Below, piece by piece: positions 22,464-28,368 of a stretch of DNA of 35,420 nt (positions within the stretch are counted from its first letter, which is position 1; the number at the start of each line of letters is the position of its first letter). The position numbers and the translations under genes were made by a program. The notes beneath the pieces were generated by a model. It was not told the DNA's origin. It saw nothing but the letters and a program-made list of their open reading frames with translations, and made no database searches. Origin of the DNA: Dehalococcoidia bacterium (GTDB lineage Bacteria > Chloroflexota > Dehalococcoidia > UBA6926). The stretch is from positions 1 through 35,420 of the forward strand of contig VXMO01000059.1 of the NCBI GenBank assembly GCA_009841045.1, read 5' to 3'.

Positions 22464-22540
22464 TGGAGGCGACGGCGGGATTCGAACCCACGAATAGGGG
22501 ATTTGCAGTCCCCCGCCTTAAACCACTTGGCTACGTCGCC
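22464..22540 (-). tRNA. tRNA-Cys (anticodon GCA), CCA encoded
   Basis: The minus strand folds as a cloverleaf with GGCGACG/CGTCGCC acceptor, anticodon stem GGGGA/TCCCC with loop CTGCAAA, and T-loop TTCGAAT. The discriminator is U, as usual for Cys, and CCA is encoded at 22464-22466. Confidence 0.95.
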
Positions 22541-22604
22541 TCGTGCTGCGCGTCCTGCGGACGCCTAACAGAGTACCCATGATAGCGCCGTTGTCCAGCG
22601 GGTG

Positions 22605-22691
22605 TGGTGCCGAGGAGGAGATTTGAACTCCTACGAGCTTTCGCCCACTGCCCCCTCAAGACAGCGTGTCTACCAATTCCACCACCTCGGC
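22605..22691 (-). tRNA. tRNA-Leu (anticodon GAG), CCA encoded
   Basis: Class II tRNA on the minus strand: GCCGAGG/CCTCGGC acceptor, anticodon stem CTGTC/GGCAG (one G-U) with loop TTGAGGG, a long variable arm, T-loop TTCAAAT, discriminator A, CCA at 22605-22607. It is distinct from the tRNA-Leu(UAA) at 11.7 kb. Confidence 0.94.
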
Positions 22692-22736
22692 AAGACCAGC
22701 CCACTGCGCGCGCCCTGCCGCGAACGGGTGGAGCGC

Positions 22737-22813
22737 TGGCAGGAGCGGAGGGATTCGAACCCCCGACCGACGGTTTTGGAGACCGTTGCTCTTCCGGACT
22801 GAGCTACGCTCCT
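22737..22813 (-). tRNA. tRNA-Trp (anticodon CCA), CCA encoded
   Basis: Cloverleaf on the minus strand with AGGAGCG/CGCTCCT acceptor, anticodon stem ACGGT/ACCGT with loop CTCCAAA, T-loop TTCGAAT and discriminator G. The 3' CCA is encoded at 22737-22739. It is the first of a Trp-Leu-Cys cluster, 51 bases beyond the last ABC gene. Confidence 0.95.
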
Positions 22814-26336: not shown

Positions 26337-27388
26337 TGCGCCGTATACCTCACGCGGGGGTCCAGAACGACGTACAGGATTTCGAGCACAAACCGCGCAG
26401 CGACGTACATCAGCGTGAACATGAATGTCAGCGCGACGATGACGGCCTCATCCGCCGTGGTGATGGCGTCGAAGTAGAGCCGCCCCATTCCGGGCCAGTT
26501 GAATACGGTCTCTGTCAGAATCGCCCCGCCGATGGAGCCGGTGAGAGCAAGGATGATATTTGTCGCGATGGGCGGGGCGGCGACACGCAGGATATGCCGC
26601 CGCATCACCTGCCCCTCCGGCAGGCCACGCGCCCGCGCTGCCGTGACGTGAAACTCCTGGGCCGTATTCAGCAGCATGGTTCGCACCACGTATGTCCACG
26701 CGCCCACGGAGACGAGCACCAAAGTCAGGACTGGGAGCGCCGCGTGCCAGAGCAGATCCATGAAACGCAGCAGTTCCCCTTCCGGCGGTGGAGAGCTGTA
26801 CAGCCCGCCCGATGGGAATATCCGCAGCTGGAATGAGAGGACGAGAATCAGCAAGATGCCCGCCCACCACGCGGGCAGGGCGTTTGACGCGGCAGCCAGG
26901 TAGGATGTTAGCCGGTCGCTCCGCGTTCCGACGCGTGTTGCCAGCTTTGCCCCCAGCCATAAGCCGATGATTGCCGTGATGACGAGCGACGTTGTCACCA
27001 GCATCATTGAGTAGGGCACGCGCTCCAGCACGATGTCTGTGACACGTGACGAGCCGTCGAAACTGCGTAAGTTGCGCGCCGAGCCAAGGTCAAGCGTGAG
27101 CACGCGCCCAACCATCGCCGGCAGCCGTGTGTACCAGGGATCGTCGAGGCCGTAAAACTCTTCGAGGTCGATGCGTCGTTCACGCAGCGTTTCTTCAAGG
27201 CGTTCCGGGTCTCGAATTGTCTCGGCGAGTGCCTGTCGCTGTCCCCGCATCTCCTCAGAGACGATGGCCGTCAACATGCGGTCGGAGAATCCCGTCGCGC
27301 CAAGAGTTACGACAACCAGTACAAGGACAACGAGCACCACGCCCACCAGGCTGAGGGCTCGCAATCCGAGTGTGTACGCAAGCGCCAT
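26333..27388 (-). CDS. ABC transporter permease, DppB/OppB-like (351 aa)
   Basis: First gene of the operon. TM helix 1 (about 13-32) is followed by an extracytoplasmic loop of about 80 residues including EEFYGLDDPWYTRLPAMVGR. TM helices of the BPD_transp_1 fold come next, and the coupling-helix motif AARARGLPEGQVMRRHILR. The DppB hallmark GLDDPWYTR...LTLDLGSA before the second helix is present. The spacing to the next gene is a 4-base overlap. The ATG at 27388 is accepted because the hydrophobic helix starts right after it; no strong Shine-Dalgarno is visible. Confidence 0.9.
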   Translation of the reverse strand: MALAYTLGLRALSLVGVVLVVLVLVVVTLGATGFSDRMLTAIVSEEMRGQRQALAETIRDPERLEETLRERRIDLEEFYGLDDPWYTRLPAMVGRVLTLDLGSARNLRSFDGSSRVTDIVLERVPYSMMLVTTSLVITAIIGLWLGAKLATRVGTRSDRLTSYLAAASNALPAWWAGILLILVLSFQLRIFPSGGLYSSPPPEGELLRFMDLLWHAALPVLTLVLVSVGAWTYVVRTMLLNTAQEFHVTAARARGLPEGQVMRRHILRVAAPPIATNIILALTGSIGGAILTETVFNWPGMGRLYFDAITTADEAVIVALTFMFTLMYVAARFVLEILYVVLDPRVRYTAQ

Positions 27389-27549
27389 TACGAATCAGAT
27401 ATAAGCATCGGGCCAAACCGTCTTACCAGCATACCCCGCCAACCCGTTGTCATTCGGAGCGCATCAAAGAAACCGAGGCCTCCATCCTCTTAAGACGCTG
27501 TACTGCTAATGTCTGTCAACGGCTTCGATTCGTGAAGAAACGCACAATG

Positions 27550-27578
27550 TTGACACGTTATCTTTTGATGCGTAGAGT
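27550..27578 (+). promoter_or_regulatory. Sigma70-type promoter driving the structured transcript
   Basis: A perfect -35 TTGACA (27550-27555) and a -10 TAGAGT (27573-27578, 4 of 6 matches) are spaced by exactly 17 bases. Transcription would begin near 27585, at the first base of the structured region. The preceding interval 27389-27549 shows no gene. Confidence 0.6.
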
Positions 27579-27649
27579 GCCGTTTGCAGGGGTTTCGACC
27601 CCGAAGAATCGGCGCCCCCGGGGGAGCCGGCGTAAAGGAGGAAAGACGA

Positions 27650-27724
27650 ATGATGCGTTTGTACGCGGAGTACGTCACACGTAAGTTCCCTTACGCGCGC
27701 CTCGCTGTGGAGAGGACCGGCTGA
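27650..27724 (+). CDS. Possible 24-aa peptide with perfect Shine-Dalgarno
   Basis: AAAGGAGG (27634-27641) lies 8 bases before ATG ATG; the frame reads 24 codons to TGA and would encode a basic, aromatic peptide starting MMRLYAEYVTRKFPYARL. It sits within the candidate structured RNA, and its coding bases form two of the helices. No family is recognised. It may be a genuine small protein, a regulatory peptide or chance. Confidence 0.4.
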   Translation: MMRLYAEYVTRKFPYARLAVERTG

Positions 27725-27899
27725 GCCGCTGAGCGGCACCAGATCAGCCACCCCGACATAGCGAGGCAAACAGGGCGGTGAGTGGCGCCCGCACGATGCC
27801 CCGCCGCGCGAAGCCAGAAAGACGGCTGTCAGGATGGTGGAGCGGGTGGAACGGAAGGAGCGCCCAGTACACCGCCCGAAAAAACGGTGCGATCGCACG

Positions 27900-27932
27900 A
27901 CAGGCCCGGGCTTTGAAGGAGTCCGGGCCTGT
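27900..27932. terminator. Terminal hairpin of the structured region
   Basis: A 10-bp perfect stem ACAGGCCCGG/CCGGGCCTGT, extendable by two pairs including a G-U, sits between the plus-strand transcript and the convergent minus-strand operon ending at 27962. There is no clear T-run on the plus side, and a TTTTTT run lies about 20 bases beyond it on the minus side, so it may act on both strands. Confidence 0.45.
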
Positions 27933-27961
27933 TGATCTGTTAAGTCCAGTCGAATGAGGGG

Positions 27962-28087
27962 CTAGTCGGCGTTGCCGGGAGATTCGCGCGTCTCAAATGC
28001 CGCGATGATCAGCAGGAGAACGATCAGCACAACGCCGACCCACATCAGGGTCTGCGTCATGTCAGCGCTGCGTCTTCGATAGATCAT
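27962..28087 (-). CDS. Small single-pass membrane protein (41 aa)
   Basis: The basic N-terminus MIYRRRSADM is followed by a strong TM helix (MWVGVVLIVLLLIIAA) and a short acidic tail, giving a cytoplasm-in orientation. Its ATG (28087) overlaps the stop of the MoaD-like gene as ATGA, the usual sign of coupled translation, which supports reality despite the size. An internal ATG at 28060 would give 32 aa. Function unknown; it may anchor or assist a neighbour. Confidence 0.55.
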   Translation of the reverse strand: MIYRRRSADMTQTLMWVGVVLIVLLLIIAAFETRESPGNAD

Positions 28088-28368
28088 GCCGCGCCGCCTG
28101 CGATTGCCGGCACGATGACGATCTCGTCACCATCTTTCACGTGCGTCTCAAGGCCACGCAGGTATTGGATATCGTTGTCGTTCAGGAAAATGGAGATGAA
28201 CGGGTGAATGTCCCCCGTCACGTCGTCCAGCACCCGCGCCTTGATGCCCGGGAACTTGTCTTCTAGGACATCGAGGGCGTCCGTGAGCCGACCTGCCGGC
28301 ACATCAATGCGATCGACGCCGTCCGTGATGCGCCGCATCGCCGTGGGAACCTTCAAGCTAGCTACCAT
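28084..28368 (-). CDS. MoaD/ThiS-family ubiquitin-like sulfur carrier (94 aa)
   Basis: Beta-grasp protein: MVASLKVPTAMRRITDG start, the segment RLTDALDVLEDKFPGIKARV, then FISIFLNDNDIQYLRGLETHV and KDGDEIVIVPAIAGG, the classical end of MoaD/ThiS/CysO proteins. In this family the C-terminal Gly-Gly is adenylated and thiocarboxylated to deliver sulfur. Here two Ala follow the Gly-Gly, so the tail would need trimming or the reading is a variant. The frame is open to 28632 inside msrB; ATG 28368 gives the family length. It lies 62 bases downstream of msrB. Its client pathway (molybdopterin, cysteine or other) is not clear. Confidence 0.8.
   Translation of the reverse strand: MVASLKVPTAMRRITDGVDRIDVPAGRLTDALDVLEDKFPGIKARVLDDVTGDIHPFISIFLNDNDIQYLRGLETHVKDGDEIVIVPAIAGGAA

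Follow-up and report, generated by a model that had tools for sequence, protein, structure and literature searches.

A probable small structured mRNA, possibly a dual-function RNA, with a conserved 23-residue reading frame in a genus of Chloroflexota

In the stretch of Dehalococcoidia DNA analysed here (35,420 nt; hereafter the window), a structured transcription unit with its own promoter is situated on the plus strand at 27550-27933, with a predicted RNA of about 350 nt (Table 1). To its left lies an oligopeptide-type ABC-transporter operon; to its right follow a tiny transmembrane ORF, a MoaD/ThiS-like protein, MsrB, and MsrA, the genes on this side extending to at least 29418. Since both flanking gene sets are located on the minus strand, the RNA diverges from the left operon and converges with the right set alone, whereas the original prediction had placed it between two mutually convergent operons. 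The neighbours on the right-hand side are retained, and are convergent with the element, in the source genome (G000) and in the two relatives in which it was found (G001 and G002). The ABC transporter adjoins the element in G000 and G001, but not in G002, where the permease is situated on a separate contig and has a different region upstream of it; given this location, a functional link to the oligopeptide transporter as a signalling system is unsupported. The tiny transmembrane ORF (MTQTLMWVGVVLIVLLLIIAAFETRESPGNAD; 27961-28059, minus strand) lies just right of the terminal stem and is conserved, well in G002 and to a lesser degree in G001.

The sigma-70-type promoter, already part of the original prediction, is indeed present and is the sole sigma-70-like match of the intergenic space (scan of 27380-28100; 0.3 expected). 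Between G000 and G001, 12 of 12 positions are identical in the -35 block and 14 of 15 in the -10/discriminator block, compared to 3 of 13 in the spacer core, such that the hexamers are conserved, whereas the spacer between them is not. The same scan found no antisense promoter-like site on the minus strand. Between the -10 box and the presumed start, a G+C-rich stretch (27579-27585, GCCGTT) is conserved in all three species; such stretches are seen in growth-rate-controlled promoters. Alternatively, it can be read as the 5' strand of a helix with 27606-27613. A long-range helix between 27579-27585 and about 27882-27888, obtained in the first fold, is lost in G001 and was discarded.

Table 1. 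Positions of the features of the element in the window
Feature	Position	Strand	Remarks
Sigma-70-type promoter TTGACA-17-TAGAGT	27550-27578	+	TTGACA 27550-27555, 17-nt spacer, TAGAGT 27573-27578
Predicted transcript	27585-27933	+	Start near 27585; the terminal stem marks the end; both predicted from promoter position and terminal stem
5' hairpin GGGG..CCCC	27589-27602	+	Kept in G001 despite a 14-nt loop insertion
Second 5' hairpin CGGC..GCCG	27610-27628	+	5' strand can alternatively pair with 27579-27585
SD-sequestering helix	27630-27696	+	27630-27640 pairs with 27686-27696 (ORF codons 11-15)
Shine-Dalgarno (SD) AAGGAGG	27635-27641	+	Present in all three species
Short ORF MRLYAEYVTRKFPYARLAVERTG*	27653-27724	+	23 codons plus TGA
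8- to 11-bp stem enclosing a two-storey hairpin	27699-27767	+	5' strand formed by ORF codons 16-19
3' domain closed by GGGCGGTG/CACCGCCC	27773-27877	+	T-A to C-G double change at 27779/27871
Near-palindrome GTGCGATCGCAC	27887-27898	+	Directly precedes the terminal stem; conserved with a single change in G001; once in the window
Terminal stem ACAGGCCCGGGCT..AGTCCGGGCCTGT	27899-27933	+	14-16 bp; alifold z = -8.2

The best-conserved block of the three-way alignment (27635-27724) consists of AAGGAGG, a distance of 8-12 nt, ATG, 22 more codons, and TGA. The Shine-Dalgarno sequence AAGGAGGAAAG sits 8-11 nt before ATG(ATG), an in-frame ATG at 27650 adding one Met in G000 and G002; in G001, the double ATG is absent and the distance is 12 nt, which is longer than ideal. 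The original prediction had seen no conventional gene here and so overlooked a short ORF with a strong Shine-Dalgarno sequence, the tail of which it had likened, as AGGAAAG near 27638, to the CR-I motif of RNase P. Identity to the G000 ORF amounts to 97% in G002 and 86% in G001, with zero indels, and the peptides (MRLYAEYVTRKFPYARLAVERTG in G000, MRLYAEYVTRKFPYVRLAVERTG in G002, and MRIYAEYVTRKFPYVRLAVRRAG in G001) are soluble, basic, aromatic, charged, and not membrane-spanning. A search of Pfam and NCBIfam with the peptide gave zero matches. In a permutation test that preserves the kinds of substitution, coding is favoured in the ORF frame both for G002-G001 (p = 0.0015) and for G000-G001 (p = 0.0009), whereas the other two frames are not significant (0.46-0.96); the pair G000-G002, with two changes only, is uninformative in this test, and the ORF is too short for a strong one. 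The ORF is likely to be translated. A selenocysteine read-through at the TGA was rejected, as two deletions in G001, of 1 and 2 bases, closely follow it and the frame beyond the stop is therefore not conserved. A further ORF at 27834 (ATGGTGGAGCGG) does not keep its frame in G002.

Folding of 27578-27942 yields -182.4 kcal/mol, compared to -146.0 +/- 5.7 kcal/mol in 100 dinucleotide shuffles (z = -6.3), and the consensus fold (alifold) of the three species reaches z = -6.6 against 60 column-shuffled alignments, which retain gaps and conservation class, not dinucleotides. Covariation among relatives, on which the original prediction had made itself depend, is present, with six pairs changed on both sides and 95.6% of cells paired versus 37-44% when the partners are slid, yet it is thin: six such pairs are reached in 8 of 500 shuffles, and with three sequences and a structure derived from these same sequences the pattern is supportive, not proof.

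Concerning the individual helices, the Shine-Dalgarno sequence pairs with codons 11-13 of its own ORF (+33..+39) in the fold ensembles of all three species. The outer pair of this helix (27630/27696) is G-C in G000 and A-T in G002 and G001, a double change, and in G001 the helix has a slightly shifted register (CACG/CGTG plus AAGG/CCTT); taken alone, the SD-ORF segment exhibits no excess consensus folding (alifold z = -0.5). The 8-bp long-range pair around a two-storey hairpin is found as originally described, GCCTCGCT/AGCGAGGC (27699-27706/27760-27767) enclosing GGCTGA..TCAGCC and GCCGC-tga-GCGGC. The stop codon lies in this hairpin, and the segment has an alifold z of -3.8, its positions being mainly invariant or changed on one side.

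The outer helix of the 3' domain has a pairing probability of about 1 in G000 and G002 and is partly paired in G001; no ORF within the domain survives the comparison. Identity of the domain to G000 is 64% in G001 and 91% in G002, compared to 45-67% (G000-G001) and 58-70% (G000-G002) at four-fold sites of the neighbouring genes, a comparison that leaves out the tiny transmembrane ORF with its too few sites. Between G000 and G002, the non-coding parts thus show clear constraint; the G000-G001 figure alone is near neutral, except for the helices, the ORF, and the terminal stem. Within the ORF, 9 of 11 (G000-G001) and 11 of 12 (G000-G002) four-fold sites are identical, which is above the neighbouring genes and points to a second constraint from RNA structure, from which part of the ORF conservation could stem. 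Set against the four-fold sites of the neighbours, the 3' domain and the four-fold sites of the ORF together imply constraint on the predicted RNA as well as on the putative peptide. When the ORF was forced open in the fold computation, as by a ribosome, the 3' domain and the terminal stem were essentially unchanged, such that this domain seems to form a unit of its own.

The 12-nt near-palindrome could be a protein-binding site on the DNA or a loop of the RNA. The terminal stem is the best-supported helix, 14 of 14 pairs holding in the three species, four of them with one-sided consistent changes; its presence had been predicted correctly, but not its length, which had been given as 10 bp. 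The T-tract of this stem is very short or weak, and a terminator scan gives the stem no score; it is probably a terminator, possibly a bidirectional one. An own promoter and an own terminator, as looked for in dual-function small RNAs, would accordingly both be conserved in the three species.

The element is found in all three genomes of the genus examined, with a single copy per genome. Among 60 relatives, the only other two genomes with it are G002 (90% identity to the G000 element) and G001 (about 70%), the public records being Dehalococcoidia MAG JAAXGS010000073.1 and Chloroflexi MAG JAPOOK010000043.1; conservation in related genomes is thereby borne out. Two sister-genus genomes of the family (completeness 69% and 86%) and two others belonging to the order yielded no convincing match. 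Searches with the peptide and a covariance model, covering 393 genomes from the class and 400 from the phylum, gave only weak matches (E 0.002-0.9), of which the one whose sequence was inspected (L041) turned out to be a hairpin stretch rich in repeats and lacking any sign of an SD-ORF arrangement. A degenerate peptide pattern, run over genome contigs, recovered only the two known relatives and one Halomonas match, which is expected by chance, and a search of viral contigs, phages, and plasmids for the element gave zero matches. At gathering threshold, Rfam 15 recognises four tRNAs elsewhere in the window and, as originally supposed, no family at the element, where cmscan at E<=5 likewise gives chance-level matches only. 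Downstream-peptide RNA (RF01704) has no match at E<=5, and the conserved 5' UTR aptamer that it requires was not found. As judged by the comparison of the three genomes, the element is a real, selected, genus-specific transcription unit.

We consider 27550-27933 (plus strand) to be probably an autonomous small structured mRNA, possibly a dual-function RNA, with a conserved peptide, a self-sequestered Shine-Dalgarno sequence, and a 3' RNA domain. Its own promoter would give rise to a transcript of about 350 nt ending at the terminal stem, and the strong Shine-Dalgarno sequence would direct translation of the conserved 23-residue peptide, as sequence and evolution suggest. With the Shine-Dalgarno sequence presumably paired to codons 11-15 of its own ORF, whose 3' end, together with the stop codon, is held in a second strong stem, the resting RNA should be translated poorly. 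A ribosome getting through would melt both stems, such that translation and RNA fold may be coupled. The region beyond the ORF (about 160 nt) might stabilise the message, bind a protein, or pair with targets; as it is conserved and has no downstream gene to control, it most likely, if speculatively, acts as RNA in itself. A further-reaching possibility, namely a bifunctional genus-specific RNA class with a peptide and a large independent 3' domain, in which a ribosome passing along the self-sequestered ORF would switch the RNA between two folds that differ in activity, is decidedly doubtful.

A purely non-coding, lineage-specific structured RNA, with a coincidental Shine-Dalgarno sequence and ORF, seems rather unlikely. 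It would agree with the strong fold, the conserved helices, and the unusually conserved four-fold sites of the ORF, and the position of ORF codons 11-19 in helices could explain the conservation there. However, in 5000 dinucleotide shuffles a Shine-Dalgarno sequence followed by ATG and at least 18 codons arises in only 0.06% (AAGGAGG) or 0.7% (AGGAGG) of cases, the changes within the ORF favour coding, and the synonymous change of codon 10 from CGT to CGG breaks the local hairpin CGTAAG/CTTACG while leaving the peptide unaltered. The pure non-coding reading is probably wrong, and of the lineage-specific RNA class originally proposed, an autonomous, structured, lineage-restricted element without Rfam family remains, whereas its being simply non-coding is not supported. 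Size and fold might also suggest a diverged housekeeping RNA, and Rfam identifies no 6S RNA in the five family genomes tested (G000, G001, G002, G003, and G004). RNase P RNA (RF00010; no match at the locus; G000:C12, 225 bits), tmRNA (G000:C19, 161 bits; none found at the element by ARAGORN), and SRP RNA (RF00169; G000:C5, 67 bits) are however all located elsewhere in the same genome, which refutes this explanation for these three classes, in line with the original prediction, and the branched 350-nt fold with a Shine-Dalgarno sequence is unlike the 6S rod; a housekeeping RNA is therefore scarcely conceivable.

The combination of a short ORF and Shine-Dalgarno sequence with alternative stems and a stem like that of a terminator also recalls attenuator leaders, but a leader peptide controlling a downstream gene is highly improbable and largely refuted: behind the terminal stem of G000 there is no plus-strand gene, the right-hand genes being minus-strand ones throughout the extent given above, and G001 and G002 share these convergent neighbours, so that the ORF, with no gene following on its strand, is not an attenuator leader. 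Stable mRNAs with a sequestered Shine-Dalgarno sequence and a very short ORF are known from hok- or aapA-type messages, and the same three traits here could indicate a type I toxin-antitoxin-like locus, i.e., a small toxic peptide whose mRNA is silenced by structure. Against this very unlikely explanation stand the charged, not membrane-spanning peptide, the lack of an antisense promoter-like site on the minus strand in the scan, the single copy per genome, and the lack of relatives in the phages and plasmids searched.

As a small structured mRNA, the element is most similar to dual-function RNAs such as VcdRP of Vibrio cholerae, which combines a 29-aa protein with a base-pairing segment (PMC8672173). 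Like VcdRP, SgrS/SgrT, and RNAIII, it would be a stand-alone transcript with its own promoter and terminator, an ORF with a Shine-Dalgarno sequence for a peptide of 20-45 residues, and further RNA outside the ORF. Unlike these, it has a Chloroflexota host and no known sequence relation to them, and the degree of structure in its 3' part far exceeds that of a typical pairing sRNA. Yfr6 of cyanobacteria, an RNA of about 250 nt whose short conserved ORF is preceded by a structured 5' UTR (PMC2864571), was likewise initially read as non-coding; the present element differs from Yfr6 and Downstream-peptide RNA in that it has no Rfam match to RF01704 and no recognised aptamer, and most of its conservation is found in the ORF rather than in the 5' UTR. 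As coding short ORFs are estimated to occur in at least about 10% of bacterial sRNAs (PMC5521070), the kind is known, though this family, restricted to one genus, was not found among those described. The element contributes an RNA family and a predicted conserved micropeptide, neither of them described so far, from an uncultured Chloroflexota lineage, and it illustrates that a short ORF in a strongly folded RNA can be mistaken for a non-coding RNA or an RNase P motif. Since the locus has its own promoter, the idea is testable in a surrogate host.

Two further features were observed in the vicinity. A short intergenic repeat of the type TGTCATTCTGAGCGCA..GAAGAATC is situated near the element in G000 (27449-27479) and G002 (L002, 537-585), with a further occurrence in G002 on the opposite strand, upstream of the permease of the transporter (L034, about 1372-1425). 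Just downstream of the ABC-transporter operon, a cluster of three tRNAs (Cys, Leu, and Trp) is located at 22464-22813 on the minus strand.
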